A stretch of 64,000 bases of DNA from Podaxis mareebaensis. Lineage: Eukaryota > Basidiomycota > Agaricomycetes > Agaricales > Agaricaceae. The notes beneath the pieces are model-generated. The model made no database searches. It saw only the letters and a list, made by a program, of their open reading frames with translations, and was not told where the DNA came from. The stretch lies in the NCBI GenBank assembly GCA_018524725.1, contig JAEUWP010000302.1, forward strand, positions 216,114-280,113, in the 5' to 3' direction. This document shows positions 27,788 to 51,592 of this stretch, piece after piece. Numbering within the stretch: the stretch's first letter is position 1; the number at the start of each line of letters is the position of its first letter. The translations under genes were made by a program, and so were the position numbers.

Positions 27788-29710
27788 CTAGGAAGTAAAC
27801 AGCCTCTTAGTGTAAGAATTCAATCCGTGAACGCCACCCTCAAGTTGAGCACTCGCAGTCCTAGCCTCGAACCTGACCTTGCCAGCTTTCACACCCTGCT
27901 GCAACTCTGAGACGCTCTTCACACCGATATCCTGGAACGAGTGTTGCACACCGACGTAGAGGTATGGCAGGAATTGCCTGACACTACCCTTGTCCTGCAC
28001 GTCTCCAGAAACGCCCTGTGCGACTTTAATCGCACTGCTCTCGGAAAAGTAGCGAGATGTGGCGGCATTCTCAATAGTCGTATTCTTCTTGGGCACGGGG
28101 TATCTGCTCGAAGAACTCTGGCTAGGGCCAGAAGCCTTGCCACTCTTGGCTGCAGAGCCTTGCTCCATGGCCTCCAGACTTCCCATTCCGCGGTATGCCT
28201 TGACGCGCTTGCCCTCGTGATAGAAGTACTCTCCCGGTGCCTCTTCAGTACCAGCGAGCAAACCGCCCATCATCACAGCGCCCGCACCAAGCGCGAGCGC
28301 CTTGACGATATGTCCAACGTTTCCAACACCACCATCCGCGATAACAGGGACACCAAACTTGCTCGCAAACTCGGCGACAGCGTAGACAGCTGTAGCCTGC
28401 GGGCGACCAACGGCCATGACCTCCTGAGTAATACAAATGGAGCCCGAACCCATACCGACGCGCAAGCCATCAGCACCCGCGGCAATCAATGTCGCAGCCT
28501 GCTCTCGCGTGACAACGTTGCCAGCGATGACTTCGATGTGAGGGAATGTTTTCTTGATCCACTGGATCATTTCAACTTGGTATATCGAGTTGCCTTGGGA
28601 GGAATCGAGGACAACAATGTCCAAACCGGCTTCCACGAGGAGCGTGAGGCGATCACGGTCGGAGGGTCGGGTCCCAATAGCAGCGGCAGCGTAAAGCTGC
28701 TTGCTCTCAGGATTTTTGGACGCAAGGGGGTAGGATTGGTTTTTGAGCAAGTCTGAGCGAGCGAGGAGCGAGACGAGACGGCCTTGAGAGTCTACAATGG
28801 GGAGCTTGCCTTTCTTCGAGTCGCGGAGGATATCGTTGGCTTCGGTAAGCGTGATGCCTTGAGGGGCAGTGACAAGGGAGGTTGTCATGACCTCACTGAG
28901 AGGTGTCGACGGATCACGGAACTGGACATCTCGTGAGGTGACAATGCCGACAAGCTTGCCACCGAGTTTTCCCGTATCTGTAAAAGATAGCACGATTAGC
29001 GTTTTATTCAAACTCGTGGTACAGGGTATGAAAAAGAGTCAGCTGGGTATATGATAAAATCTTCCGCATGCCACGCGCTGAACACGCGTTACTCGGAAGA
29101 ACGAAGGTTGTATAAAGATAAGTATTCATCACATGTACAGAAATACGGAGGGACAAGTGGCAACAATCGATAGGAGACAATTTACTCACCTGTGATGGGG
29201 ATGCCACAGAATCCCAGCCTCGCCTTGATGTCCAATACATCTTCGACGGCGTGACTAGGTGAGAGAACCACAGGATCCGTAATGAATCCATTCTCATGAC
29301 GTTTGACGGCTCGGACCATAGCCGCTTGTGACTCGGCAGATTGATTGTGATGGATGACACCAATGCCGCCCAACAGCTGGTTTCCCGAGCCGACAAGACA
29401 GATTACTGAGGGTACGAGAACGGACGCAGAAATATAGCCTTACCGCCATGGCAATGGCCATTTCGGTCTCAGTAACGGTATCCATAGGACTGCTCATGAA
29501 TGGCGTCTTGAGAACGACGTTTCTTGTAATGCGACTCTCGATCAGGACGTCCGAGGCAGGAAAGTCGATTTTCCCTGGGAGGAGGAGAAAGTCGTTGTAG
29601 GTGAGGCCCCCATGGATGCGGGACTCCATGAGATCTCCGACAGAAAGGCCATCCGAGCGTTCATAGGTCTTGAGGTGGTCGAGGGCAGTGGCAGGGTTGA
29701 GGTAGGACAT
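27788..29710 (-). CDS. Inosine-5'-monophosphate dehydrogenase
   Basis: In transcription order the exons are 29710-29444, 29376-29190 and 28977-27788, giving 547 aa. The enzyme oxidises IMP to XMP with NAD+, the rate-limiting step of guanine nucleotide synthesis. The start is [20 protein letters not shown]. The barrel opens with [17 protein letters not shown] and [10 protein letters not shown]. Two CBS repeats span residues about 120-240 ([44 protein letters not shown]). The catalytic loop [18 protein letters not shown] places the active Cys at about residue 333. The flap region follows ([17 protein letters not shown]). The C-terminal YTKRLFTS is usual for fungal enzymes. The intron at 28978-29189 is 212 nt, longer than most here. 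Mycophenolate resistance cannot be judged from this sequence alone. Confidence 0.96.
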
Positions 29711-30730: not shown

Positions 30731-30736
30731 AGAAAC

Positions 30737-30898
30737 CGGCAGAAAGCCAAGGTGACAGGAACGATATCATAACAAACAGGCAGAAAGCCGAGGCGACAGG
30801 AACGTATCATAACAAACAGGCAGGAAGCCGAGGCGACAGGAACAATATCATAACAAACAGGCAGAAAGCTGAGGCGACAGGAACATATCATAACAAAC
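30737..30898. repeat. Minisatellite, four copies of about 40-41 bp
   Basis: Four head-to-tail copies begin GGCAGAAAGCC and end ATATCATAACAAACA, with 1-3 substitutions and 1-nt length changes between them. The array lies just beyond the 3' end of chimera A. It has no clear protein-coding role. Confidence 0.85.
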
Positions 30899-31023: not shown

Positions 31024-32533
31024 CTATCCCAAGTGGCCTTGGAGTTCCCCTTGCTGATATTGCACGCCCTGCCGCGGTCCACCGACACCGCCGCCAACTC
31101 CAGGACCGCCAACATCACCACCGAAATGGTTCGCCTCATAGTATCCCTGTCCTTGAGGCCCACCTTGACCTTCCTGCGCGGCACCTGGGCCTTGAGGCTG
31201 GATTTGGTCAGGCACGCTTTGCATGGGTCCAAGACTACCACCTACACCAGCCTCACTATCATTTCGGTACCCGTATGGAGGCTCAGGAGCACTCATGTTG
31301 TGAGCTCCTGCACCAGCGCCATTACCAGCACCACCAGAGTGTCCACCGAGGTTCATGAATCCCTGGCCGGCGCCCCCATAGAGTTGCTTGCTGTAATCGT
31401 TCGCGCCCACAGAGCCACCTCCCTGACCGAGATCAAGGGCATGCAGGCGTTGATGTTGAGGGTGCTGGGGGTGCTGCTGGTAGTCGTCATATCCACCTTG
31501 TTGATATAATACCTGGTCGTAAGGGTTGTTCTGAGACTGGGCCCCGACGTCAACATTGGCGCCAGTTTGGTTGAGAGCAGGGTTAGGTCCCGACAAGCCA
31601 GGTTGGAACACTGCAGGATACTTGGCGTATGATTGAGGAATGTCACCAGGGTTGTACGGGGTGTCATAGTACTGCCAGGTCTGCGGGTGGGGATTGGAGG
31701 AGTAGGGAACGGGTGGAGGAGGGAACTGCTGCGGATTCCTGTTCCTAAATCCCGTCTGTTTAGCATAGGTATCGTAGAAGTCCTGCCGTTATATGTTATC
31801 TGGGACTTATTTGAGGAGTAACAAAACTTACTCTCTGATTCTCATAGCCGTGACCAACTGAACCAAAACCACCAAGGTGAGGATCATACTGGCGTTGGTT
31901 CTGAGTTGTACCATGGCCAAAGCCACCATAAGGGGAGTCTTGGGCGGGGTGGTAGTCAGTCATCAAGTGCGGGAATTTTTCAGGAGGGACTTTTCTCTGT
32001 GGACCTTGGGTCATGGCCATTCCAAGCAGTGAATGGTCTTGGGCAAGGTGGTAACCGATCATTGAGTGCAGGAATTTTTCAGGAGGCAGATCGTCCTAGC
32101 CGGGCATAGATTTTGGTGGGCTTTCTCAGCATTGAGCATGTATGAGGATTACCTGTTCTATCCAATGTTTGCCGTTCTGCGACACACAATTGCGCCACTT
32201 AGCCCTTGGGATTCGTCGGTGACGCATCATAAGCAATGGGAGCATCGCGAGGAGAAGATTGCCTAGAGAGGACGGGAATCAGCATATATGGTGAGAGAGT
32301 TGAAGGGGGGAAGCGCGCACGAAAGCTATCGGGGTCCGAAGGTCTATATGGGACACCGCCATTACTGACGCACTCATTCACAAGGGCATGACACGCATCG
32401 TATTCCTATAAGCCAAGTAAACAACAGGGACAAGGGAGAGTAGAATAAAACATACCTCCTTACTGTAGTCGCGATTCAGCGACATCATCCACGTCAGGAC
32501 GGGACACTCGTAGGCTGCGCCCGTCCCATACAT
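31024..32533 (-). CDS. Chimeric gene A: PPTase-like N-terminal half fused to Def1 C-terminal tail
   Basis: In transcription order the exons are 32533-32456, 32405-32321, 32262-32153, 32095-31832 and 31782-31024, giving 431 aa in frame. Residues 1-124 (MYGTGAAYECPVLTWMMSLN, then EYDACHALVNECV, RRIPRAKWRNC, NGKHWIEQ and IGYHLAQDHSLLGMAM) match the PPTase-like gene at 50504-51592 exon by exon. A second, diverged copy of the PPEKF-H-M-YH-AQD block follows (residues 128-144). From DSPYGGFG (about residue 144) to the end the protein matches DEF1: HLGGFGSVGHGYENQR, then FYDTYAKQTG and Gly/Gln-rich repeats. The DEF1 CUE domain and KLSWAQIA motif are absent. A stop after GHLG truncates it about 16 residues before the position reached in chimera B. 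Function is unknown. Both parents lie within 20 kb. Confidence 0.75.
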
Positions 32534-32539
32534 AGTTCA

Positions 32540-32984
32540 AGGATATAGTGATGTGGTGCGTGAGGGATATGGGTGATACAGTGAACGAGGGATATGGGTG
32601 GTACAGTGAGTGAGTGATATGGTGGTATAGCGACCTTTATAGGTGGAATGATGAATGAGGAATATGAGCGTGAGGCACAGCCTCATACTGCTTTTATACA
32701 TACACACAGGCCGTGCAATATCTTCGGTTGCCCTCCATAGACCTCCAACTTCTCTGAGTTCTTCACACTCATACAGACGTCTCTCCGGAAGTGTCGGCGC
32801 CGCACTAGTTCACAATTGGGTCTCATTTTCAGTACTATCTTTACGAGTAGAGCAAGGTACCAGGATGGCGATTGCGCTGTAAAGTACCTAGGCCGAAGTC
32901 AAGAAATATCTCGTTTATGACGATTTAGGTCGGAATTCCGCTTGCTTGGGTGCCAGCCGTGCAGGAAGGATCGAGAGTGAAACT
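32540..32984. other. Upstream region of chimera A with short tandem repeat
   Basis: A degenerate repeat of about 30 bp around the core GAGGGATATGGGTG occurs about three times at 32555-32635. The rest separates chimera A from the first RFT1 remnant. No intact gene is seen. Confidence 0.5.
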
Positions 32985-33485
32985 ATTTTCTGAGAGGCGG
33001 AGGTCGTCTATGCGCCTGCAGCGGTTGTGGGGTCGTCGGCTGAGCCCTTTCATGACTTGTGCATCGTTTTACACTGAAAAGGATTGAGGAAATGCTGATA
33101 GCCCAGGAAGGTCCGTGTAGAATTGAAGAGCATGCAAGTGCAAGCAGAGCCGGAGTGGAATTACGGCTAGGGGCATTGTGATACTGTTGGTGCTTTGTAT
33201 AATGCAAGGCAGGGAGACGAACACGGCAGGTGGGCTTTACTTGCATTTGCAGTCCGTGGGCAGCTAGCGTACACCTTGACAGGTCCAGTCCTTTATCTAA
33301 CGTATTTTGGGGTGAAGACCTCAGGCCGACAGGTGAGAACATGGTTTGAGTTTTCTCTGAGGAAAGGCTGATGGTTTGTTTACCTTGGACGGTGAGAACA
33401 GTCAGCGTTCGTGGACACACGGTTGTTCAAGTTGTTACTGCCATGACTTGGCCATCGATTGTCAAGCACCCGCTTACAGAGTACG
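32985..33485 (+). pseudogene. RFT1 remnant, first copy (unit A)
   Basis: Degenerate similarity to the middle of the RFT1 gene at 48.5-50.4 kb, in the opposite orientation. Recognisable stretches include GAGGAAATGCTGATAGCCCAG near 33087 and TTCAAGTTGTTACTGCCATGA near 33426. These match RFT1 DNA around 49.82 and 49.5 kb. There is no open frame of useful length. Confidence 0.6.
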
Positions 33486-33499
33486 ATTGCGTGTGTCAA

Positions 33500-33920
33500 T
33501 GGTACGCGACGGACGAGTAGACTGAGTGTAGCTTGGGAATTGTTGACGGTGTCATTTCATAGTCTGTGTGTCAATTCAGGTTGATTCTAGTCGAGGAAAT
33601 GCTGATGGGTTAAGAAGATCCATCATGGGTGGAGTTGAAGACGAACATACGAGCGCGAGATGAGGGAGTGCAATTGGGCAGCTTGCGTACAGCGTAACAT
33701 GTCTTGTGATTTATTTGGCATATTTTGGTGTCAAGATTTCACGAAGCTTGGCGGCGAGAATCTTGTTCAATTTTTTTTTGGCGGAACGCTGACGCATTGT
33801 CTGTTTGTGGCAGGAAGCAGGCAGTGTTCGTGGACCCACAGTTCAAGTCCAAGTTCCCGATGACCGTGACCTTGCAACTGGTTGTCAAGCACGTGCTTGG
33901 GGATTGTTGCTGCGCCGAAC
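33500..33920 (+). pseudogene. RFT1 remnant, second copy (unit A)
   Basis: The same RFT1 segment appears again: TCGAGGAAATGCTGATGGGT near 33590, GTGCAATTGGGCAGCTTGCG near 33668, and CACAGTTCAAGTCCAAGTTC near 33837. It carries indels that destroy the frame. The first and second remnants are therefore tandem copies of one RFT1 region inside unit A. Confidence 0.65.
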
Positions 33921-34039
33921 TCTAAATTTCTGCTACAAGGCTACAAGCACACTAGCTGGACGGTGGGCATAAACCAAGATTAGCTAGTAACTATGTCCTC
34001 GGCAGGGTATTATCTCCAGATAAGGTTACATGCTTGCGG

Positions 34040-34335
34040 ACGGAGGGGCCCTCAAGTTGAGGATTTCAGTACAACGCAGGATGGTATGTACCGAGTACAA
34101 TATGGACTCTGAACTTGGCCGGGTTTTGAAGATGTTCGAGGAGGCAAATAAACCATTTAGAGGATTGAGTAGAAGGAAAGTATTCTTTGGGTTGGTCGGT
34201 GGATGATCATTTGGTCATTATGAACAGGTCCTTGCATATTTTAAATCCTAAAATTGAAAAGTTGGCCGAGGAGCATCGATTGATGAACGGCTTCATTGTC
34301 GGCAAGCAGGTATGTCAAAGAGCCTTTGTTTCAAT
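34040..34335 (+). pseudogene. FIG4 5' remnant (unit A)
   Basis: Matches early FIG4 exons (native copy near 47.83-48.25 kb, minus strand). Shared segments are GAGGCAAATAAACCATTTAG, TATTCTTTGGGTTGGTCGGT and TTGATGAACGGCTTC, ending near TATGTCAAAGAGCC. There are frameshifts and only a small part of the gene. The orientation is opposite to the parent. Confidence 0.7.
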
Positions 34336-34686
34336 AGTCTGTACTGCTGCCTGAACAACACTAAGGGACTCAAATTAGGTTGTATTTGCATCAGCTCCGA
34401 CGCGGCATCCTCAGGAGGACTCAAGCTTATATTTCTTACTATACATCGAATTGGAACACGGAAAAAGTTGGAACACATAGGGGAGGTCTGAAACCGAAAC
34501 GAGAATGGGAAGGGGAAGAGTGCGAAGCACGGTGGAGCATGATAAACCAGATAATGCGGGTACAAATGTGCAAGAGCAAAGCGACATGAGGACACACCCA
34601 GAAGACTCAGCCGACGACAAATTAAAGATCAGAGTCGAAAGCATGCGGTAGAAAAAAAGGTTGGACGATCCCCTGCAAGGCATTGA

Positions 34687-37148
34687 CTAGTAGGGATAGA
34701 AGCTACCATCGGTTGCGCCATGTGGGTATCCGAGGCGGCCTTGGGGTTCTCCTTGCTGATGTTGCACGCCTTGCTGTGGTCCACCGACACCGCCGCCAAC
34801 TCCAGTACCGCCAACATCACCACCGAAATGGTTCGCTCCATAGTATCCTTGCCCTTGAGAGCCACCTTGACCTTCCTGCGCGGCACCTGGGGCTTGAGGC
34901 TGAATTTGATCAGGTCCGCTTTGTATGGGCCCAAGACCATCACCCACACCAACCTCACCATCATTTTGATACCTGTATGAAGGCTCGAGAGCGCTCACGC
35001 TGTGAGGTCCCGCACCAGTGCCTGTGAAACCACTACCGGCACCGCCAGAGTGTCCACCGAGGCCCATGAATCCCTGGCCGGCACTCCCATAGACTTGCTT
35101 GTTGCAATCGCTCGCGACTACAGAAGCACCTTTTTGGCCGAGACCAAGGGCATACGAGTGTTGGTGCCGAGAGTGCTGGGAGTGCTGCTGGTAGATGTCA
35201 TATCCATCTTGTTGATATAATCCCTGGCCGTAAGGGTTGCTCTGAGGCTGAACCCTGACATCAACGTTGGCGTCAATTTGATTGAGAGCGGGGCTAGGTC
35301 CCGGCAGGCTAGGTTGGAACACTACGGGATACTTAGCGTATGACTGGGGAATGTTACCAGGGTTGTGTGGGGTGTCGTAGTACTGCCGGTTCTGCGGGTA
35401 GGGGCTGGAGGAGTATGGAACGGGTGGAAGAGGGAATTGCTGTGGGTTCCCGTTCCCAGATCCCGTCTGCTTAGCATACGTATCATAGAAATCCTGCCAT
35501 TTGTTATCTGGAACGTATATGAGAGGTAACAAAACTTACTCTCTGATTCTCATAGCCGTGACCAACTGAACCAAACCCACCAAGGTAAGGATTATACTTG
35601 CGTTGGTTCGGAGTCCTACTGTAGCCAAAGCCGCCATAGGGAGAGTCTAGTGTAGGGTGGTAGCCAATAATTGAGTTAAAGAATTTTTCAGGAAGTAGAC
35701 CATCCTAGCCGAACGTGGACTTAGTGAGCTTTCTAGACATTGAACATGTATGAGGATCACCTGTTCTATCCAATGTTTGCCGTTCTGTGTCACACAATCC
35801 CGCCACTTAGCCCTCGGGATTCGCCGGTGGTGCATCATGAGCAATGGGATCATTATAAGAAGATTGCCTATATACTATCCTTCACCCACGTTTCGACATC
35901 CCCCCCGTTTCGACACATTCCTTATATCTCAAGCCCCGTTCGGTATCTCCCCCCCATATTTTGTAATCTGTGCTGGAATGCCATTCCGCACGTCTTCCAG
36001 CTGGTTTGAAGTCTGTAGTTTGCGTATAAGAAAAGTTAGTTTTTGGAGCAGTTGTCACGCTTTGCCAGGAGATGCCGTGTCGGAGTGCAAAGTACAATTG
36101 ATCGCCATCACATCTTTTTTCGCCCATTTGTCCTTTGACCAAGGTATCCAACGTTCCTGTGCTTCCCATTCTGCTTGTCTCTCCGCCGACTTATGCCCGC
36201 TCAGTGTCAGAAGTCACGCGCTCATGAAGATCCTGAGTATGAGGACCGCATTCAGGAGGTTATCCGGTCCCTGAATAATGATACCCAGAAGACTGTAACT
36301 GCAGCTGCACGCGAGTTTAAAGTGAATGAGCGTCGTCAGTTTGCAAGGGGTCAAACTAGCTGACTATCATTAAGGTAACACGGACAACCCTCATTGGCCG
36401 GTACACAGGAAAACATATATCTTATAAAGAAGCAGCGACAATTTCACATCCCACTCCGCAAGAGTTTTCTCTCCCAACTCCAGGCCCTTCGTGTCTGGTG
36501 TCCCCTCAACTTTCGCTTAACCATACCCATCAGGACTTCGCTTTTTCACCCAACTACTACACTACCTTTCCTTCTCAGCCAAACCATGTAGGTCTTCAGC
36601 AGTTCACCACCAGACCATCCCCAGGCGGTCGGTTGGGCTATTCCCCCCCTTGACGGGTTGCATCATATTATTCTCATACACTGTGATTTGCGATATCCTA
36701 CTGCTCTCGTATTCTAGCTAGTTACCTAAAGTTACTTAGTCTACATATTTGGTTACTTAATTTCGTCACTCATCAATTGAGTGGATCATCGGAGTTCAGA
36801 ACGGCAAGTCTCGGCCATTGTGACGATTGCGTGACCTGTCGAAACGGGGGGGATGTCGAAAGGTGGGTGAAGGATAGTAGGGAGGGACGGGTATCAGCGT
36901 ATATGATCGGAGGGTTGGAGGGAGAGAAGCACGCACGAAAGCTATCGGGATCCGAAGGCTCGTATGGGATACCATTTTTGGTAACGCACTCATTCACAAG
37001 GGCATGGCAGGCATCATACTCCTAGAAGGCGAGTAAACGGGGGAGACAGGGGGAGTGGTAAGAGAGGTACCTCTTTGCTGTAGTCGCTATTCAGGAACAT
37101 CATCCGCGACAAGATAGGACACTTGTACGCCGTGCCCGTTCTCGACAT
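34687..37148 (-). CDS. Chimeric gene B: PPTase-like N-terminal half fused to Def1 C-terminal tail, transposon in intron
   Basis: In transcription order the exons are 37148-37071, 37021-36937, 35867-35761, 35704-35540 and 35493-34687, giving 413 aa in frame. Residues 1-109 are PPTase-like (MSRTGTAYKCPILSRMMFLN, EYDACHALVNECV, RRIPRAKWRDC, NGKHWIEQ, EKFFNSIIGYH). Def1-derived sequence starts at DSPYGGFGYS (about residue 110). It continues through LGGFGSVGHGYENQR and FYDTYAKQTGSG to YPHGATDGSFYPY. Unlike chimera A it has a single PPEKF-type block before the junction, and it ends close to the native Def1 end. Intron 2 is 1069 nt because a 1-kb transposon lies inside it. The acceptor TATAG is kept beside the element. 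Whether the gene is expressed cannot be told. Confidence 0.75.
35875..36877. mobile_element. pogo/Tc1-mariner-like element, defective, in intron 2 of chimera B
   Basis: The terminal inverted repeats are about 40 bp with one mismatch, starting CTATCCTTCACCCAC and containing CGACATCCCCCCCGTTTCGACA-type sequence at both ends. TA flanks both ends (35873-35874 and 36878-36879), as expected for Tc1/mariner/pogo insertion. The only coding trace is 36193-36363, which encodes a transposase-like N-terminal helix-turn-helix (EDRIQEVIRSLNND, then VTAAAREFKV). The DDE catalytic domain is missing, so the element is non-autonomous. Chimera A has the matching intron without the element. Confidence 0.85.
36193..36363 (+). 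pseudogene. Truncated pogo-type transposase N-terminus
   Basis: A 56-aa open frame has a Psq-like helix-turn-helix pattern (RIQEVIRSLNND, TVTAAAREFKVN) and then stops. No DDE domain follows inside the element. It is a relic of the transposase of the surrounding element. Confidence 0.65.
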
Positions 37149-37237
37149 TGTCTGTTGTCGGTAGAATGGGGAGCTAAACGGCGTGAAGACAAATATATAG
37201 TTGTGGCAGCATGGGTTATGAGCAATACGACGAAAGA

Positions 37238-38390
37238 CGATGAGCACAGCCATAGGCCGAACCTTATGCATGATGCCATTGACTGGAGCGTGCAATTAGC
37301 CGGCATTCCTGACTGCCACGTGAAGCCCACAAATCCATTAATACCACACGTGGCCACACACCATACCTTCAGGAATTCCTCTATCGCTTCTCTCGATGCT
37401 CTCCGACTCTTCTTCAGGCTCTTCCTTTTTACTTTTAACGAGGCCTTCATAGGCATCACCTTCCTTGACGTCTTTGGCATCACTGTAATCTAAATGACTA
37501 ATTCGACCCCATTCTCTCCACATTCTTGTTTTTCAGCCACAAAGGCGTCAAGACCACCCTTCTCAGAGCTAAATTGCCTTTGTGCCCATTGCAGTAGGAG
37601 TCACTTGCAGACGCGATTGCATGAGGGGGGGATTATCAACAATATGCCAAAAATGAGCTGAAACTGAGACCGTTTTTCCGAGAGGCAGTGGCCGTGCATG
37701 CCCTCCAGCGGTTTCGGAATTGTTGGTGCAGCCATTTCCATAATCTGTGTGTCAATTCGGGTTGGTTCTGGTCGAGGAAATGCTGATGGGTCAGGAAGGT
37801 CCATGGTTGGTGGAGTTGAAGGCGGACGCGCGAGTGTGAGACGAGGAAGTGCAATTGGGCGGCTGTGTACATGCCTGGTGGTTTGTTTGCCATTTTTTTT
37901 TTGGAGGGGGGGGGGGGGGTCGAGATCTCATCAAGCGGGGAGGTAAGAATCTCGTTCAATTTTTTTGACGGAATGCTAATGGATTGTCTGCAGTGAGGAG
38001 TAGGCAACGTTTGTAGATCTCGCACAGTTCAAGTTGTACAGGTGACACTGACTCGGCAATCCGTTGTCAGGCACATGCTTGCGGATGGAGACTACGTAGT
38101 TGACTTTGTCATTCCTGGTGTCAACCATAGTGCATCTGCAATGCTGCACATCCTGTACACAATGCTAATTTTCCTTTCAAGTTCTTGGATTTACTAGTAT
38201 TATTTTCTAACCTATTCAAAAGGCTATGCGACTTTGTCTTTCAAAAGCTTTTGCACGCGGATTCGAAACAGACTCAGCGGTCGAGGACGCAGCTAACGCC
38301 CTTACATCCCTGGCCTCGATACAACTCGGACCGTTGCGTTCTCAGGTGCATTCAAGTACATACACCGCCGGGCGCGAGCCTCGCTGTCGT
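37238..38390 (+). pseudogene. RFT1 remnant (unit B)
   Basis: Starts at an ATG (37238) that aligns with the native RFT1 start. The DNA ATGAGCACAGCCATAGGCCG is identical, but a deletion right after it shifts the frame. Shifted frames still read DWSVQLAGIPDCHVK, ATHHTFRNSSIASLDAL and later LLHADSKQTQ, all found in RFT1. A T9-G16 run interrupts it near 37892. The C-terminal third of RFT1 is missing and FIG4 sequence follows directly. The orientation is opposite to the parent at 48501-50406. Confidence 0.8.
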
Positions 38391-38393
38391 CGC

Positions 38394-38850
38394 GGATGAA
38401 TCTCCGCTCAACTCTAAGATGCTAGAGAAGACCGAAAGCCACCTTCCATGGTCGGCTCAAAGATCCTCTCACTTCACACTGTACTCAATAATTCATTCCA
38501 TATGAGAATCGTGCCGGATTCTTCATCATCGCTTCAAAGGCTTCTGAATCGCGCCACAGGATCCTCAAGCTGAGGATTTTCAGCACAGCGCAGGATGATA
38601 CGAGTACAATATGGATAAACTCGGCCGGCGTTGAAGATGTTCGAGGCAAATAAACCATTTAGAGAATTGAGTAGGGGAGGGTATTCTTTGGGTTGGTCGG
38701 TGGATGACCATTGAAATTTGGTCGTCAGGAACATATCCTTGTCTACTTGAATCATGATTGAAAAATTGGCTGAGGAGCAGCAATTGATGAACGGCTTCGT
38801 TGTCGAGCAAGTGGGTATGGCAAACAACTTTTGTTTCAAACACATGATAC
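38394..38850 (+). pseudogene. FIG4 5' remnant (unit B)
   Basis: Begins near the native FIG4 start (ATGAATCTCCGCTCAACTCT, against ATGGACGAGCCCCTGTCCAA). It continues through TTCATCATCGCTTCAAA, GAGGCAAATAAACCATTTAG and TTCTTTGGGTTGGTCGGT to GAACGGCTTC. Indels break the frame. Only the first exons of FIG4 are represented. Confidence 0.75.
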
Positions 38851-39361: not shown

Positions 39362-42300
39362 TTACTGCCAGTATCCCTGCTGCCTCTGGTAGGGATAAAA
39401 GCCGCCATCATTCGCGCCTTGAGGGTATCCAAGGTGACCTTGGGGTCCTTGTTGATGATGCGCGTTTTGCTGTGGTCCACCAACACCGCCACCGATTCCA
39501 GCACTACCGACACCACCGCTGAAACGGTTTGCTCCGTAGTAGCCCTGACCTTGAGGCCCACCTTGACCTCCCTGGCCAGCACCTTGACCTTGAGGCTGAC
39601 CTTGGCCGGGTCCACTTTGCACAGATCCACGACCACCACCAACGCCAAGTCCGCTATCCTTTTGGTACTTGTACGGAGTTTCAGGAGAGCTCGCGTTGCG
39701 AGGTCCTGCACCGGCTCCAGTAACACCACTACCAGCACCACCGGACTGTCCACCGAGGCCCATGAATCCCTGGCCAGCACCCCCATAGAGTTGCTTGCTG
39801 TAATCGCTCGCGCCCACAGAGACACCTCCCTGACCGAGACCAAGGGCGTGCGAGTGTTGAGAGTGGTGGGGGTGCTGCTGGTAGTCGTCATATCCACCTT
39901 GCTGATATAATCCCTGGCTGTAAGGGTTGCTCTGAGGCTGAACGCTGACGCCAACGTTGGCACCAGGTTGCTTGGTCGCAGGGCTGGGAGCAGAGTTGGG
40001 TCCGGGAGGGCCAGGTTGGAACATGGCAGGATACTTTACGTATGGCTGAGGAACATAACCAGAGCTGTACGGGGCGCCATAATACTGGTTTTGCGGGTAG
40101 GGGTTGTAGTAGTACGGAACGGGTGGAGGGGGGAACTGCTGTGGGCCTTGTCCGCCAGCTGATTGCGGTTGAGTTGTGTTCTGTGACGAATGCTGCGTTG
40201 CCTGAGTGGCGGACGGCGGGAGTGAATTTGTAGGGGGTTGTTGCTGGTTGCTAGGAAGCCCCTTGATATCGTCGTGACCAAGGACGTTCCTGTTGCCGAA
40301 TCCTGTCTGCTGAGCGTAAGTATCGTAGAAGCCCTGTCGTTACACGTTAGCTTGGACTTGTATTGGACTTTATAAAACTTACCCTCTGATTGTCGTAGCC
40401 GTAATCAGCTGAGCCAAAACCACCGAGGTGAGAACCTTGTTGGTGTTGGCTCTGAGTTCCTATTTGACTGAAGCCGCCATAGGGAGAGTCTTGAGCCTGA
40501 CCTGCAGGGGGGGTAGGGGTATGGAAATAGGGAGCAGCGGTGGTAGGATCACTTTGACGGAAGTAGCTTGAGTGGGCGGTGGCACTCTGTGGCTGTTGAG
40601 TTGTAGATGGGAGATGCTGCGAGTCGAGCTGAGCGGGGAGATGCTGGGAATATTGATGATGAGTATGAGATTGTTGAACTTGTTGAGGTAGGTGTTGGTG
40701 TTGTTGGATCTGGTGGTGATTTTGTTGTTGCTGTGGTTGTTGCGGTTGGAGGTTAACAAGCGACGGTTGCTGAGGCGCGGCCTGTTGGTGGTTGAATTGT
40801 TGAAGAGGTGAAGCAGCTGCAGCTGCAGAGTGAGCGGTGGTTTGGGTGGATTGAGTAGGTTGGGAAACAGAAGTGGACAGGGTTTGGTGCGAGATCGGCT
40901 GAGCCCCAACGGCAGAGGGTGGTTGTTGGGGTTGGGGTTGAGGTTGTGATGGAAGGCTAGATTGAGATTGTTGCTGTTGCTGTTGGAAAACGGATCCTAG
41001 GGATGTTGATACGGCTGGAGCAGTAGCAGGGGGAGCGGAGGAAGTTGGAGGTTCGTACTGAGGCTTGTTAGGCGTGGTCGTGGCAGCAGCAGTCTCGGGA
41101 TGAGGAGCAGGAGCGACGGTTGTAGGGGCTTCGGGTTCAGTTCTGCCATTGACGTGAGGATAAGACTCGGAATCTGAAGGAGGGGGGGGGGTTACTTACG
41201 GAGTGGATTCAAAGAGGCTTTCTCCGTTGAGGCTGAGACTACCGAATTGCATTCCAACCTTCTCAATCCCAGAACCAAACGAGCTCGGCATCACAACGGG
41301 TTGGTCTGTTGTCCTGTTCCGTGCGCTGGCTCGTGAGGATAGAGCAGCAGATCGCGATACAAGCTTGGGTGATGGGGTTGCGGCAGCAGATGAAGTCAAT
41401 GAGGGAGCAGGTAGTGAAGGGGCGGCAGGTTGCGAGGGAGGTTCCACCTTTGCAGGTGCAGGTTCCGCGACGGGTTCGGGTGCAGGAGTAGGTTGCTTGG
41501 GGGGCTCTTCGATTTTTTCAGGGACGGCATTTGGTGCTGGAGGCTCAGTCTTTGGTTCTTCATTAGGAAGCTCGACGGTGGGCGGTTGCGAAGGGGGTTG
41601 TGAGGGTTCTGCTTCCCATGAAGAAGCCTGTGTTGTCAATGGTTCCTCCCATCCTGACGGCTGGGACTCTGCCTCTGGTTCTTTAGGGGGTGCAGGAGCT
41701 GTCGCTGGGGTAGGTGCAGGAGGTTGCTGTGAAGGAGCGGGTGTTGGTTGTTGAGGAGCTTGTTGAGGAGGTTGAGGGGGGGGAGCGGGGGTGGGTTTGG
41801 AAGTAGGTTTACTGTCAGAATGAATCAGGACTGAAAAGGGTCATAGCCTGAAAAGGGACTTACCTCGCAATTTGTGCCCAAGATAGCTTGGCTGGCCCAG
41901 GCGCAGGAGCGGGTGTCTTAAGCGCCTGTTTGGGAACAGCCGCGCCAGGGTTCACGGGTGCTGGTGCATGGGGTGTGCTGGCATCCATCTCGGCTGGCTT
42001 GGGGATTGAAGTCGCGCCTGGCTCTTCGGAGTGGGCAGGCTTCGAGTCTGTCCAGGCATGTGCCACCTGAGGAATGCCATTTTGCTGGTCCTTGACCTCG
42101 TTTGACAACGATTTTGACACGTCAACTGATTCAAGTTGGGCGGACTCGGTCGAGGTGGAAGCGGATACGTCACCAGCGGGCGGAGCGGGACGGGGACTGC
42201 CAGTACGGGCAGCGTGACCGTTGACGATACCACCCCTGTGAGGACCGCGGCCTCGGGCTGTGGCACCACCTCGTCCAGGACCACCTCTACCGCCTCGACC

Positions 42301-42701
42301 ACCTCTGGCCCCACGAGACTCGCCTCTAGTGGGAGCCGAGTCCTTGGAGGGCTGGGCAGAGGCAGATTTCTTGTCCTTTTTGCGCGAAACTGAGCCCCAT
42401 TGCTCGGCGACACCTGGACAAGGCCGTGACGTAAGAAACAGCGAGGGGAGGTCGGGGAGGAGACAAACCGTCAGTAATGCGAGTCGCGGCTAATTCAACG
42501 TCACCATTGGCTTCAAGGAGAGTCGAATAGAGGTCTGTAGTATTTTTTTTTTTGTGAGTCGTGCGCGTACAAAGACCGAGTGGAAAAGAGCAGACCGTCG
42601 TTTGTCCAGTCTGGGAAGAGCTCCTTGAGAGAGCGGACCTGAGGAGCATACTTTGAGGGAATCTGGTGGTCTTGGGACAGGGCAGCTTTGGGTTGGGACA
42701 T
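39362..42701 (-). CDS. DEF1: Def1-like RNA polymerase II degradation factor (CUE domain, Gln-rich tail)
   Basis: In transcription order the exons are 42701-42596, 42534-42469, 42413-41864, 41811-41200, 41142-40383 and 40333-39362, giving 1021 aa. The N terminus holds a CUE-type ubiquitin-binding domain: VRSLKELFPDWTNDDLYSTL, then LEANGDVELAATRITDG and EQWGSV. A basic RGG-rich stretch, the motif KLSWAQIA, a Pro/Glu-rich region and the conserved VVMPSSFGSGIEKVGMQFGS follow. About 560 residues of Gln/Pro/Gly-rich low complexity complete the protein. In yeast, Def1 bridges stalled RNA polymerase II to the Elongin-Cullin ligase. Its Gln-rich C-terminal part is removed by the proteasome so that it can enter the nucleus. 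This is the parent of the 3' exons in chimeras A and B: the copied part starts inside the exon at 40383-41142 (DSPYGGF) and includes the last exon. Confidence 0.85.
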
Positions 42702-45501: not shown

Positions 45502-48433
45502 TCAATAAGCCGTAGAGTCGTACCCTTGGTATTCGTCTTGTTCATCTTCCGATACAAAAGGCTCCAGTAACTGCAATGCAAGAAGTTCGGTTGGATTCTT
45601 ATCCTGATGTGTCGTAACCTGGGCCTTTACAGCTTCGGCTTCCTTCTGCACTTTGTTCTGGTGCTTCTTCTGCCTCTCCAACGTTGGGCTTGATCTAATC
45701 CATTGTCGAACACCTTGTACAACGCTACCTCCTATCAGCCGAGAGTGCCACAGAGGAAAACGCGGGAACATACCCAGGACCATGGGTGACGTCTCTGTAG
45801 AAACGTTTCTGGAAAGGGCTCTTGTATACGTCTCCAGCTGTTTTGCTGTCCATACGCTCATCAGCATCGTTGTGATGAGAGGATGTTCGATCGTTGCCTA
45901 CCCGGGAAGTTTCAATGTGCTGTTCATCGAGTAAGCGAAATGCTTGCCCAAGGACGTGAATAGCAAGGGGCGGTAGTATTCCACCCAAAAATCCCCTCGA
46001 GTAGTAACAAAATCTTGTAGTGCTTTCTCGCTTTCCTCGACCAAATACGGGGGAACGAGGTACTCGGGATGGAACCAGTTTTGATATCCACTACGGACCG
46101 GAGGTAAAGGATGAGTTCGCTCGTTGTTGACACCAAGAAACAAGTTAATAGCTGCTTGCTTATCAGCATCTGTGTCTGTGTCAGTTTTTCGTACAAAGGC
46201 TATTGTATATCAGTCGAACCTAGCAGGGAGTTTGTATAGAACCGCCGAATGTTCTCAATGATGTCCCGAGAATGGCTATTCCAGTGTGGCATGCGACGGT
46301 ACGTTTCAACTCGGTTGACGAGGGCACTCCCGGTATATTGAAGAGCGATCGCTGAGGAAGAATAGAGTCAGACAAAACTGCTGAGGTGGGTCAGGACTCA
46401 ACATACTATCGCCATGGTCGTGGTACATCTCTGTCAGCATATCGACGGCATCTGAGTCAAACTCCAAGTTGGGCGAATCGACCACCCCGAGTGCGTACAA
46501 TTGATGACCCAATGCCCGTTTGCCAAACACGAACTGAGCTGCATTGGTGCGATCTAGACAATCCACGCAGTTCGTTCGACAGATTCCGTTCTGAAGCAGG
46601 ATCCGGTTCCGCCAAGGAGGTTCACCACCATCCGGGCTACATGCAACGTTAGGTCACAAACTCGGCGATATGACAAAGACGACAAGCCTATACTGGTTCT
46701 GGAGCAGATGAGAATATGGCTCCGGTCCTGTATGGAAGAAACCAGTCATCTGAATGGATTCCTCTGCAATATCCTCGAGATATCCGATTACGTCTCGCTC
46801 CTTACTGTTACGGCAATCTCAGTGATTCTCCAACCGCAACCATTGTTAAACTCACTCTTTATGAGCGCGCGAAATATCCCAGGCATGGTATATCATCTTC
46901 TTGTCCTTCGGCAGGAATTGATTAAGATACTTGACGCATTGTGTATACTCGTCCAGGAGCTTTGATTCACGAGGGACAGGCTCCCGTTTCTTGACAAGAT
47001 TGAGAATTGTGATTGGTGCGCCATAACGCCTGAACAGGTCGTCAAAATGCTTTGAGGCAGCAGTGTAAAAAGGATCCACAACGCTGACTATGCTTGAACT
47101 GTGAGTGTCGGGTTCAGTAGGCAAACTGGTAGACAGTACTTTCGATAGGAGGCTTTGGGGTCATGCTGTTTGTCTCCTGGACCCAAGAGACAGGAATACT
47201 TCCACGGTATTGGGCGTAACTGGTGTAGTTGGGGCTTGGGCGTCTACGGCACTGATGCTTGTTCTCGCATCCGGATGATGGATAGTAGAAAGGCGTTGTT
47301 AGTGCCTCTGATACAATCTGTTCTGTCTCTACCTCATTCGCAACATTGCCCTGCACCAGAGGTCGTCGAGCGCTATTAAGAATGATCTAGAATATTCAAC
47401 GTACCTCCTCGTTTACGCCTCGCTTCAGGTACCGAGCACCAGCATAATGCCTTGACCTTCGGGCGATGAGTGTTACAAACACGACGCGTCCAAGGACAGT
47501 GAGCTCTGGAGCACAATCGCCGATAAGTATGGTTCTCGTCAGACAATGTGAGGATATGACTGACTGGCTTGGTCAACATGGCCGTGCATTAGCGGGAGGA
47601 ACCAGTGTGGCTTGATGACAGGTTTCCCGTCCTCATCTCTCAACACGCAAGCTGCTGACATCATATGAAAGTTCCATGCAAACCGATCGTTGAACGGCCA
47701 AGGTTCGTTCAACGTCCGAGGACAACCTATGAGGTTATGTTGCAGCGTTGATGTAAGGTCATAGGTATAACTAGTTATTCACTGGTCATCATCCCTGCAG
47801 TAGTAACACAGCGAGATACCCCACACCTAAAGTAAAAGTTCTTTGACATATCGACTTGTTTGAAGATGTTCATCAACCGTTGCTCCTCTGCCGGCTTTTC
47901 GACCTTGTGATTGAAGCAAACGGGAATCATATCCGTTTGTTCGCAATGAAAGAGATAATGTCCGCCAAGAAGGGCCACAACGGACCGTTTCGAAATGATA
48001 ATCATATACCAGCCTGCAGTAAACCGTATGAAGCCTGTGCAAAGCTCACAATATGCCCCAGCTCAAAGTGCATTGACCACTCACCGACCAACCCAAAGAA
48101 CACCCTCCCCTTTCCCAAACCTCCAAACGGCTTATTTGCCTCGTCGAGCGTCTTCAATGTCGAGTTCATGTACTTGCCGCTGTACTCTGTGTCATCCTCT
48201 ACAATGGACACCTCATCTTGCGCCGTCCTGTCGATCTTCAGGATCCGATGGCGTGACTCGGATGCATTTGAAGCGACGATGAAGAACTTGGCGCGATTCT
48301 CGTATAGAATGAATTTATTGAATACAGTGCGAGGGGAGGAGGTCTTTGGTGAGTCTAGGATGGAAGACTTTGAGAGAGTGAGGTTGGTTTCGCTTTTGTC
48401 TGATATTTTAGAGTTGGACAGGGGCTCGTCCAT
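45502..48433 (-). CDS. FIG4: Fig4-like SAC-domain phosphoinositide phosphatase
   Basis: The ATG is at 48433 and the stop at 45502, with many short introns not fully resolved. The N-terminal SAC region reads [20 protein letters not shown], then [19 protein letters not shown] and VFFGLVG. The catalytic Cys-x5-Arg motif is CVDCLDRTN (about 46546-46575), followed by [19 protein letters not shown] and [24 protein letters not shown] sequence. Fig4 acts with the Vac14/Fab1(PIKfyve) complex on endolysosomal membranes to control PI(3,5)P2. The parent of the FIG4 remnants in units A and B is the 5' part of this gene. Its start codon is 67 bp from the RFT1 stop, both on the minus strand. Confidence 0.85.
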
Positions 48434-48500
48434 GACAATAGCAAATGAGACGCAATGTCAGTGACGTATGTACTTAAAACTCCTGTGACAACGTGACTCA

Positions 48501-50406
48501 TTACGATCTAGGACGCAGGTTCCTCCTCCGACCAGAGCTCATCCACCAGTAGCTAATCCATACTACCGCAAACGCACTACCTAACCCCACATGCTGCAAA
48601 ACAGTCGTATTCAACAACGACTGTCTGCCTTCCATGCGGACGAGCTTTTCAATGTTTCTAGACCTCCCGTCGTAGATGATTGTTCCCCACATCGCGAGTG
48701 ACAGAAGTAAGAGGGAGAGCGAAGGAAAAACGCGTCGGAAGGAAATCAGACCCTGTGCTTCTTTACCGGTAAAGAACGACTTGGTGAACAGAACAGCAAA
48801 CACGATCCTGGCGAAAAGGTTGACAATGTTCGCGTAAACCAGGGAGGCATCACCCAAACCAAGGCGATAGAGCGAAACAGCAGTTGTGATGAACAACAGA
48901 GAAAACACAACCATCCATCTGGAGAGCGGTCAGAAAAGTTGAGTCAGGAGTACTGCCTCTCTTACCTGCTTTGACGATTGAGATCTTTAGGACCGGCAAC
49001 GCTTGCGACGAATCCCTCCAAGCCACCGTTCACAGCGAGTACGGGAATATACCACACCCACGCAGCAAGGATTTGCGGGGCGCTGGTGGCCATATAACGT
49101 GGTGGCAACAGGATCGGCAATAGGATGGACAAGTATGTCGTTCCAAACAACAGAAAGAACACAGAGAGCTCGAGTTGTACTGAGACCAGAGAAGTAAGAG
49201 CACTGGCTGCATCTTTGAGTGCCGACTCTGTTTTGGATCCTTGTGCAAAAGTTTTCGAGAAGTAAAGACGCATGACCTCTTCAATGGGTTGGAAAACAAT
49301 GCGAGCAATTAAAGAACCTAGAAAGGAATTAGTACTGCATAGGATGTACAGCATTTGCAGATATGTACCGTAGTTGACAGCGAGAGCATAACCCCCCTGA
49401 TCCTGCAGAGGACTGAACCATGACAAAATCAATTTGTCTCCCTCCGTGAGCAGGTGCTTGACAATGGATTGCCAAGTCATTGTCACCGACAACTTGAACA
49501 ACTGTGGGTTCAGGTATACTGCCTGCCTCTCGCTGCAAGCGGACAAACACTCAGTATCCCCTCAGAGAGGCCGAACAGAATTCTTACCTCCCAACTTGAG
49601 GCTTCAACGTCTTAACCCCAAGGTACGACAGATAAACCACAAGGCACGTTAGACTGTATGCCAGCTGCCCAATTGCAAATGCAAGCAAGGCCAATGTTCC
49701 CTGTTCATCCCCCTGCCTCGCATCATACAAAAGTACCAAGAGGGTTGTCACGCTCTTGGCCGTGATCCCACTTCCCTCGGCTCGCACTCGTATAGTCGTC
49801 TTCAATTCCACCATAGACCTTCCCAACCCATCAGCGTTTCCTCGAGCGCAGTTAACACGAATCAACACACAGGTTATGAAATGGTTCCGTCAACAGCTCT
49901 ACAACCGCAGCAAGGGCGTACACGGCCACCGCCTCTCGGAAACACGGCCTCAACCTTAGCTCGTCCTTGGCATACTGCTGGTACCCCCAGGCAATAGCGC
50001 TCGCAAGTGGAACTCCTACTGCAATGGGGACAAAGGAGAGATTCAGTGATGTTGGGTCGGTTGATTTAGCCCTAAGAAGGGTGGTCCTGACGCCTTCACG
50101 GCTGAGAAACAAGATTGTGCTGAGAATGAGGTCGAATTGGATTACAGCGGCACCAAATACATCGGGGGAGGTGATGCGTATGAGGGCCTGGTTGAGGGTG
50201 AAGGTGAAGAGCCTGGAGAAGAGTTGGAGGCCAATAAGAGCAGCGAGAGAGGCGATAGAGGAATTCCTGAGGGTATGGTGGGTGGCCATGAGTGATATTA
50301 ATGGATTTATGAGCTTCACGTGGCAGTCAGGAATGGCGGCTAATTGCACGCTCCAGTCAATGGCATCATCATCAGGCCTCAGGGCTCGGCCTATGGCTGT
50401 GCTCAT
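48501..50406 (-). CDS. RFT1: Rft1-like ER oligosaccharide-lipid translocation protein
   Basis: The ATG is at 50406 (start MSTAIGRALRPDDD) and the stop at 48501, with at least four exons. Many hydrophobic helices are visible: LQLFSRLFTFTLNQALIRIT, EAVAVYALAAVVELLTEPFH, TLALLAFAIGQLAYSLTCLVVYLSYLG, and a C-terminal VVFSLLFITTAVSLYRLG. Diagnostic pieces include LTEPF, IRVRAEGSGITAKS, VKHLLTEGDKLILSWF, DQGGYALAVNYG and RIVFQPIEE. Rft1 is needed for dolichol-linked Man5GlcNAc2 to be used in the ER lumen for N-glycosylation. Its biochemical role as a flippase is debated. It is divergent from the PPTase-like gene with only 97 bp between the start codons. This arrangement is copied, inverted, in unit B. 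Confidence 0.88.
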
Positions 50407-50503
50407 CGTCTTTCGCCGTATTGCTCATAACCCGTGTCGCCACAACTATATAGTTTCTTTCACGCCGTATCGCTCCCAATCCCTTCTCACATATCAACGG
50501 ACT
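50407..50503. promoter_or_regulatory. 97-bp bidirectional promoter RFT1 / PPTase-like gene
   Basis: The entire gap between two divergent start codons. A diverged copy sits between chimera B (ATG 37148) and the RFT1 remnant (ATG 37238), so chimera B inherited this promoter. No TATA box is obvious. Function is inferred from position. Confidence 0.5.
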
Positions 50504-51592
50504 ATGTCGGGAACGGGCACTGCTTATGAGTGTCCCATCCTGGTATGGATGATATCCCTAAATCGCGACTACAGTAAAGAGGTACCTCTCTTCTCACTCC
50601 CCCTCATCTCCCTCGTTTAAAAGCCCTCCAGGAATATGATGCCTGCCATACGCTTGTAAAAGAGTGTGTTCCCAATGTCAGCATCCCCTATAAGCCTTCA
50701 GATCCAGACACCTTTCGTACGATCTTCTCTCTGATTCTCTCATCACTTATGCTGATTCCGGTTCTCCCTAGGCAATCTTCTCCTCGCAATGCTCCCATTG
50801 CTTATGATGCGTCACAGACGAATACCAAGGGCCAAGTGGCGGGATTGCGTGACCCAGAACGGCAAACATTGGATAGAACAGGTAATCCTCATACTTATTA
50901 ATGTTGAGAACGCACACCAAAGTTCACGGCCGATTAGGATGATCTACCTCCTGAAAAATTCCTGCACTCAATGATCGGTTACCACCTTGCCCAAGACCAC
51001 TCACTGCTTGGAATGGCCATGACCCAAGGTCCACAGAAAAAAGTCATCAACATTGGCCTCGGGATTCTGATACACAAGATCCCCGGGCGGGCTACTCTCT
51101 CCTCCTACATCGAATCACTATCACACAAGGTATGCCTTCCTGCTCGGATCATCTGTTTCATAGCTGACTCCGACATCGGGCTAGCTGACACCCCTAGAGC
51201 TGGCGGCCATTACCGCGGCCCCAAACCCCGACTCTGTGCTTCGAAGGCTATGCATCATCCTAACACTAAAATCTTCATACGCCAAGGCGATCGGCCAGAA
51301 CGCCGCATTCGATTGGGCCCGTCTCGAGTTTGACGTTGATAACAAATCCGCAACCGCCGACGGACACGCATTAACGGGCTGGGAGTTTCGCCTGTACCGC
51401 GCCAAATTAGGTGTAGCACGAGGTGTGGAACCCAAGTTGGTCGAAGAAGAATATCAATGTTGTTGCGCATTCTTCCGAGGGTGCGAAGACCTCAAATTTG
51501 TCTGGTACGACGACCCTAAGCAGTTGGAATCCTGGGTACAATTCATAAACATCGACCAAATGACCAAGGTGATACCCAAGCTCACCGCCTGA
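50504..51592 (+). CDS. 4'-phosphopantetheinyl-transferase-like protein, catalytic motifs altered
   Basis: Exons are 50504-50581, 50632-50716, 50772-50881, 50938-51129 and 51185-51592, giving 290 aa in frame, a normal length for Sfp/Lys5-type enzymes. Family landmarks are visible in order: RNLLLAMLPLLMMRHRRIPR, NGKHWIE, IGYHLAQDHSLLGMAM (the usual YNVSHD-LVAMAF region), IGLGILIHKIPGR (usual GVDV-M), LTPLELAAIT, LKSSYAKAIGQ (usual LKEAY-KA), TADGHALTGWEFRLYRAKLG and EEYQCCCAFFRG. PPTases transfer phosphopantetheine from CoA to carrier proteins of fatty acid, polyketide and lysine synthesis. Here the His of SHD (Gln110), the Asp of GxD (Gly133) and the Glu of KEA (Ser185) are changed. This suggests a pseudoenzyme. 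It is the parent of the N-terminal halves of chimeras A and B. Confidence 0.75.

Follow-up and report, generated by a model that had tools for sequence, protein, structure and literature searches.

A 64,000-nucleotide stretch of Podaxis mareebaensis DNA (contig JAEUWP010000302.1, positions 216,114 to 280,113; hereafter the window) carries two neighbouring chimeric genes, A and B, each of which joins the front of a gene for a phosphopantetheinyl transferase (PPTase)-like protein, P, to the tail of a gene for a homologue, D, of Def1 (RNA polymerase II degradation factor 1). The pair is real and moderately old. The best explanation overall, which we hold tentatively, would be a single fusion followed by a tandem duplication, with the P-derived front under selection along the chimera lineage, A a working gene and B a dying one.

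The two gene models were rebuilt by splicing the window DNA exon by exon. All introns (8/8) ran from GT to AG, both reading frames were open through to the stop codon, and neither a frame-breaking indel nor an internal stop, the marks of a pseudogene, was found in the exons of A or B. Each product begins as P (residues 1 to 107-127) and continues as the tail of D, and DNA comparison assigned each end to one identifiable parent gene. The matches were extensive and collinear, with E values of 4e-27 to 0 for the main blocks and of 1.6e-7 for a 51-nucleotide (nt) repeat at the joint. The parental introns were kept, as in chimeric genes formed by DNA-level duplication and unlike in retroposed ones. 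Relative to D, A stops 21 codons early and B 8 codons early. A Pfam scan of the A protein gave no match at E values up to 1. The DNA matches confirmed a fusion of a PPTase-like front and a Def1 tail with both parents in the window, as an original prediction made from the letters alone had proposed, and re-splicing agreed with its five in-frame exons per copy (431 and 413 amino acids (aa)) and conserved splice sites. Its description of both copies as intact held for the open frames but is doubtful for B because of a transposon-like element that it had overlooked. Intron 2 of B measured 1069 nt, against 46-58 nt in the 7 other chimera introns, because this 1007-nt element sits inside it.

A and B belong to two units with the same order of parts, namely the D tail, the P front, RFT1 pieces and FIG4 pieces (identities from Pfam: Rft-1, E 2e-103; SacI domain, E 2e-10). 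In each unit, the P front together with the RFT1 and FIG4 pieces corresponds to 47834-51045 copied in inverted orientation. A and B have their joint at the same position, beside a short sequence common to both parents (GCYCAAGAC; GCTCAAGAC in D and GCCCAAGAC in P), and their tails have two deletions (141 and 12 nt) and three short insertions in common. The common joint and these five tail indels rule out two independent fusions, and a single fusion that was later duplicated in tandem seems the most economical history. From one D-tail copy to the next (A, B, D), start to start, the distance was 3663 and then 4675 nt, the latter with the ~1 kb insert of B in it. The own-genome searches covered an assembly of 36.95 million bases in 429 contigs, and their copy counts are lower bounds. 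They found the D tail in A, B and D, plus a weak 40-residue match on contig C421, and RFT1 in its own gene and the decayed pieces only. The arrangement and the common joint are seen in the sequence itself, and from them we infer the repair mechanism: a single rearrangement in which an inverted copy of the FIG4 end, RFT1 and the P front was joined in frame to a copied D tail at GCYCAAGAC, with tandem duplication of the fused unit then giving A and B.

A neutral yardstick is often missing when chimeric genes are judged. In the present case, the duplication that carried the fusion also left neighbouring copies of equal age, which serve as an internal control for both frame retention and codon constraint and allow constraint to be assigned to one half of the fusion. 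The indels in the chimera exons, relative to the parents or between the two copies, were -3 in B, +99 and -9 in A, and -141, -12, +3, +6 and +3 in both copies. None of these 8 breaks the frame, compared with 31 of 46 in the RFT1 and FIG4 pieces, a difference with a chance probability of about 5e-4 (hand calculation). The pieces also contained 10 stops in 541 compared codons, 9 of the 10 in the B unit; these decay counts are sums over eight aligned pieces, some of which lie on the same parental stretch. The neighbouring copies were thus as decayed as had been predicted. In neutral simulations, each chimera copy acquired 6.2-6.8 stops, a copy escaped every stop in 0.0003-0.002 of the runs, and both copies were open in 0/4000 runs in each of four settings. 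Taken by half, the front of a copy was open by chance in ~10% of the runs and the tail in 1.1-1.6%, indicating that the open frame is chiefly a feature of the tail.

For codon constraint, the front was defined as exons 1-3, and three-gene counts scored the changes unique to A or B, relative to the parent, by codon position. At positions 1, 2 and 3, A had 5, 3 and 12 changes and B had 9, 2 and 12, which placed 24/43 at position 3 (p=0.002); when the start of exon 4 was included, the count was 29/52 (p=0.0007). The control RFT1 and FIG4 pieces (529 coding sites) had 42, 43 and 43 changes, or 43/128 at position 3 (p=0.51), and the position-3 share differed between front and control (p=0.0085). 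Some of these three-gene tests held 13 codons of A from a recopied piece of exon 4, the removal of which altered little. A codon model of exons 1-3 was then fitted to four genes, A, B, P and P2, where P2 is a second intact P gene of the same genome (C340:4601-5684, 290 aa, 276/290 residues identical to P; reported on the same contig, C340). The tree that groups A with B, which has one more free parameter, was ahead of the two alternatives by about 12.5 log units. On this tree omega, the ratio of nonsynonymous to synonymous substitution rates (dN/dS), was 0.16 in A (p=0.009 versus 1), 0.25 in B (p=0.051), 0.15 on the stem, and 0.03 in P and P2. For the whole chimera lineage the front had an omega of 0.19, below 1 at p=2e-7. 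In 100 neutral simulations, the whole-lineage omega never fell below 0.53, nor that of the A and B tips below 0.43, against 0.20 seen for the tips. Exons 1-2 alone gave an A-B omega of 0.16 (p=2e-5). The dN/dS comparison, which had been named earlier as a check, gave an omega well below 1 for the front of the lineage and a weak signal for the tail (0.60, p=0.013).

Several results weigh against selection in a working chimera. In a strict count, P2 served as the outgroup, and sites were scored only where P and P2 agree; the expected position-3 share was 0.21, because P and P2 differ at 46/90 third positions. The changes at positions 1, 2 and 3 were 5, 3 and 5 in A, 8, 2 and 3 in B, and 4, 1 and 6 on the shared stem. 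Position 3 was in excess on the stem (6/11, p=0.014) and in total (14/37, p=0.013), but not in A (5/13, p=0.11), B (3/13, p=0.53) or A and B combined (8/26, p=0.15), and 14/37 compared with an expected one third, with no correction for opportunity, gave p=0.34. More than any other result, this count speaks against strongly claiming selection after the split, above all in B. The chimera front was also less constrained than P and P2 (omega 0.19 versus 0.03, p=1e-4); the difference in omega between chimera and parent was significant for the front with P2, and not significant without it (front p=0.20, tail p=0.30). Two less likely trees shrank the signal to a shared omega of 0.31 (p=0.004) and 0.35 (p=0.03). 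Exons 1-2 were 72-81% identical to P, no closer than the introns (63-82%), and the improbable openness sits mostly in the tail, since the front alone was stop-free in about a tenth of the runs per copy. The tail signal, although weak, means that the tail may not be idle, and no fused relative was found among the best 120 of the 163 matches of a search with A. We conclude that the front of the chimera lineage was probably under real, though relaxed, constraint, which is most evident on the stem and in A and doubtful in B. Purifying selection on the front is seen in the models, and the strict count supports it for the whole lineage, not for A or B alone.

Table 1. Features of the two chimeric units and their parents (positions in the window)
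Feature	Position	Strand	Description
Chimeric gene A	31024..32533	-	Exons 32533-32456, 32405-32321, 32262-32153, 32095-31832, 31782-31024; 431 aa
Chimeric gene B	34687..37148	-	Exons 37148-37071, 37021-36937, 35867-35761, 35704-35540, 35493-34687; 413 aa if intron 2 removed
Original fusion joint in A	31937..31987	-	Second copy of P segment 50947-50997, 9/51 differ from P, joined to D tail
First part of A exon 4	31988..32095	-	P segment, 4 differences in 108 nt, P residues to 127; taken as later copy
A upstream	32552..32986	.	No P promoter homology; match ends 18 nt before start codon; 25-nt tandem repeat 32562-32622
B upstream	37149..37402	-	Homologous to P/RFT1 intergenic region, two ungapped blocks 88% and 92%
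Transposon-like element	35873..36879	.	1007 nt, in B intron 2; 43-nt terminal inverted repeats (42/43), apparent TA target duplication
Decayed RFT1 and FIG4 pieces, A unit	32987..34334	+	RFT1-like pieces present twice
Decayed RFT1 and FIG4 pieces, B unit	37270..38839	+	From DNA comparison
Parent P, PPTase-like protein	50504..51592	+	Exons 50504-50581, 50632-50716, 50772-50881, 50938-51129, 51185-51592; 290 aa
Parent D, Def1 homologue	39362..42701	-	Six exons, 1021 aa, CUE domain residues 20-58

The two copies are unequal. In the structure model of an orthologue of P, the first lobe extends from the strand at residues 12-18 to the helix at 124-128, and the second lobe starts with the strand at 130-136. 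A retains P to residue 127, while B leaves P at about residue 107-111, so that of the hairpin 103-111/114-122 only the first strand remains. In exon 4 of A, a near-identical P piece (4/108 differ) stands ahead of the older joint (9/51 differ), indicating that P was copied into A a second time and that this restored the end of the lobe. This later piece completes the N-terminal PPTase lobe in A, which also has a new upstream region. B was hit by a transposon and is probably dying. The element in its intron 2 has three other near-full copies in the genome (97, 92 and 91%) as well as partial copies, and the product predicted for retention of the intron, or for splicing to any of the five leading AGs tried within the insert, would be 55-108 aa. 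The strongly conserved columns of the lobe were kept at 31/32 in A and at 28/32 in B, where the conserved residues W15, R21, R68 and M103 were changed, and a conserved-column test of the N-terminal lobe gave p=0.034 for A and p=0.13 for B. A is the likelier functional copy, and B is probably a relic or dying copy.

Both copies might instead be non-functional relics of a segmental duplication, with frames kept open by luck and with selection acting at most on the shared ancestor, a doubtful reading that nevertheless deserves to be taken seriously. The transposon in intron 2 of B and the four altered lobe residues fit such relics, as do tails that change nearly freely and the lack of a fused homologue among the matches listed; the strict count, with 3/13 for B and 5/13 for A (p=0.11), leaves room for them too. 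Luck, however, would have to spare each copy every stop, at a chance of 0.0003-0.002, while neighbours of the same age decayed, and the tip omega of 0.20 was unreached in the 100 neutral runs (smallest 0.43).

The original prediction had offered selection or recent origin as reasons for the retained frames. The selection option stood, whereas recent origin was rejected because the introns differ by 18-37% and the RFT1 and FIG4 pieces by 18-28% from their parents, and the chimeras have accumulated ~0.4-0.8 neutral substitutions per site. In terms of identity, the P-derived introns were at 63-82% to P, the D-derived intron at 70-71% to D, the RFT1 and FIG4 stretches at 72-82% to their parents, exons 1-3 of A and B at 72-92% to the parents, and the D-tail exon at 78-81% to D (B partly misaligned). 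The codon-based neutral distance of the chimeras was about 0.6-0.8 per site to P and 0.44-0.51 to D, and protein distances placed the split of the chimera fronts from P later than the split of P from its Macrolepiota orthologue. Between the two units, identity of the copied pieces ranged from 65% for RFT1 (247/380) to 81% for FIG4 (243/299), and the neutral A-B distance was about 0.6 in the front versus 0.24 in the tail. The D tails of A and B (31024-31985 versus 34687-35693) are closer than the fronts at neutral sites, which suggests exchange between the tails. The two ungapped blocks upstream of B differ from the P region by only 8-12%. P2 as the source of the chimera fronts was rejected at a neutral distance of about 1.9.

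It is improbable, in our estimate, that P overwrote the chimera fronts after the fusion and left a functional P-like signature in genes without function. Such overwriting would suit the low divergence of the first part of A exon 4 (4/108) and of A exon 3 (92%), the unequal neutral distance between A and B in front and tail, and the B-upstream blocks (88-92%), which are closer to P than the introns are; third-position sites, moreover, group A+B, A+P and B+P near-equally (6, 5 and 5). But the introns between the front exons (63-82%) are as diverged as the RFT1 and FIG4 pieces (72-82%), omega is unchanged when exons 1-2 are taken by themselves, and the tree pairing A with B is preferred. M17 and N36 are common to A and B and absent from P, P2 and the Macrolepiota orthologue, and P2 is too distant to have been the source.

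In the Def1-derived tail, the changes after the split of A and B at positions 1, 2 and 3 were 16, 17 and 19 in A and 17, 20 and 26 in B. This gave no significant codon-position constraint (45/115 at position 3, p=0.11; versus the control pieces, p=0.22). The tail omega was 0.66 between A and B (p=0.048), 0.60 when shared by A and B (p=0.013) and 0.43 on the D branch, and was reached in 0/100 or 5/100 neutral simulations, depending on the mutation model. The Gly and Gln content (G+Q) was 34% in A, 32% in B and 38% in D. Both chimera tails were without the LGHxDxKGLP block and without the YWQ end. The N-terminal CUE domain that marks a Def1 member is missing from the chimeras, as had been foreseen, the CUE domain of D (residues 20-58) lying outside the copied tail. 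Conserved tail columns were slightly avoided by changes in A (p=0.04) and not in B (p=0.41). The tail is thus nearly unconstrained while its frame is kept open, and would be mostly a passive disordered appendage that must remain translatable.

In yeast, Def1 is retained in the cytoplasm with the help of its polyglutamine-rich C-terminus (PMC12804109), and the original prediction had suggested that the product might act through its Def1 tail. That the chimera titrates Def1 partners or alters Def1 processing is very improbable: the open tail, its D-like G+Q composition, the yeast role, the slight avoidance of conserved columns in A and the weak omega signal speak for it, but the changes are near-even over codon positions, both copies have lost two motifs, and conserved columns are not avoided in B. 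These sequences do not clearly point to the cytoplasmic-retention role as what selection kept.

The parents bear on what the front may do. Exon 5 of P was corrected to 51185-51592, giving 290 aa. Among the matches listed, the closest homologue of P (90% identity) came from Macrolepiota fuliginosa and the next ones from Leucoagaricus and Leucocoprinus, and the family is spread across the Agaricomycetes, with 265 homologues at E values up to 0.001 among 865 candidates (the best 120 of the 265 were listed). At least two further P-like paralogues were seen in Macrolepiota fuliginosa (P0005 and P0078), one of them 260 aa long and without the first part; P-like genes therefore seem to multiply in this group. 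The Pfam ACPS match in P was weak and its sole matched part was residues 156-208, a region absent from the chimeras, which carry the N-terminal lobe of P instead. The structure model of the Macrolepiota orthologue (predicted local distance difference test score, pLDDT, 92) had human AASDHPPT (2cg5) as its best match (E 1.7e-12). In the P-family profile, Gly occupies the position of the Asp in the GID motif of AASDHPPT and is at least 90% conserved among 46 P-family sequences. In AASDHPPT, this Asp binds Mg. A 4'-phosphopantetheinyl transferase is recognised by both lobes, the Asp of GID and a W..KE motif. Neither A nor B has the second lobe, on which ground catalysis by the chimera was rejected, and P itself has Gly for Asp. 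The translated pieces of a separate gene (C269:98758-98988) showed GKPYI, GIDVM and WTMKEAYTK, and a canonical-looking PPTase is therefore present besides P and P2. The P and P2 family is possibly a conserved non-catalytic, or differently catalytic, relative of the PPTases.

D has the features of a Def1, namely a CUE domain (Pfam E 2.4e-8), a long Q/G-rich C-terminal region and the YWQ end, which closes the protein in 60/71 Def1 homologues. The closest match of its tail was from Agaricus bisporus (77%), which, with the homologues of P, places the window in or close to the Agaricaceae.

The search for homologues of A scored 7109 candidates, restricted to proteins of 0.55-1.75 times the length of A, of which 163 passed. 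Among the best 120 of these, no match covered more than half of A. Five inspected matches among those listed were Def1 tails, and the rest were taken as P-like by name, length and a coverage of 25-37%. In the literature, at the level of titles and abstract openings, no description of a PPTase-Def1 fusion was found, and the two proteins together brought up a single paper, on Trichoderma and tomato.

Several other observations concern the surroundings. A minisatellite of ~4 copies of a 41-nt unit lies at 30733-30898, just downstream of A. In the A unit, the RFT1 pieces 33257-33475 and 33675-33898 represent one more local duplication, with 66% identity between them. Elsewhere in the window are genes for an IMP dehydrogenase (27791-29011) and a proteasome/cyclosome-repeat protein (5649-6938), and a glycosyl hydrolase family 3 fragment (55775-57013).

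Returning to the account of one fusion, a tandem duplication and selection on the front, A would make a free-standing N-terminal lobe of P with a disordered Q/G-rich appendage. Its most likely mode of action would be to bind what the N-terminal lobe of P, or of the near-identical P2, binds, and not to act on Def1. A more specific proposal, which we consider rather unlikely as it stands, is that A functions as a young gene in which selection acts on one lobe of a PPTase-like protein with unusual catalytic features: the fusion would have cut this lobe between the strands of its last hairpin, a second copying from the parent would have restored it, and selection would have rebuilt a structural unit that, carrying a disordered tail taken from elsewhere, now regulates or partners its parent as a gene of its own. 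Should A prove to be expressed, it would show cleanly how one structural lobe of an enzyme-like protein can become an independent gene after a repeated copying from the parent has made the lobe whole again.

Compared with known systems, the predicted fold of the P orthologue resembles the AASDHPPT and Sfp-type phosphopantetheinyl transferases (PDB 2cg5, 4mrt). In the P family, however, Gly replaces the Asp that human AASDHPPT has in GID, the GID/WTMKEAYTK gene is a separate one in this genome, and the chimeras carry the first lobe only. Parent D is like Def1 in its CUE domain, Q/G-rich tail and YWQ end, whereas the chimeras have neither this domain nor two of the conserved tail motifs. In rice, the origin of new genes by gene fusion has been surveyed (PMC9199173), and parts of two genes likewise become one; here, a PPTase-like N-terminal lobe and a Def1 tail are joined, and decayed companions of the same age adjoin them. 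In mushroom-forming fungi, a natural gene fusion is described for FfSpdsSr, the spermidine synthase-saccharopine reductase of basidiomycetes (PMC10051792). FfSpdsSr links two enzymes, whereas the chimera, for which no fused relative was found among the matches listed, links a PPTase-like lobe to a disordered tail.

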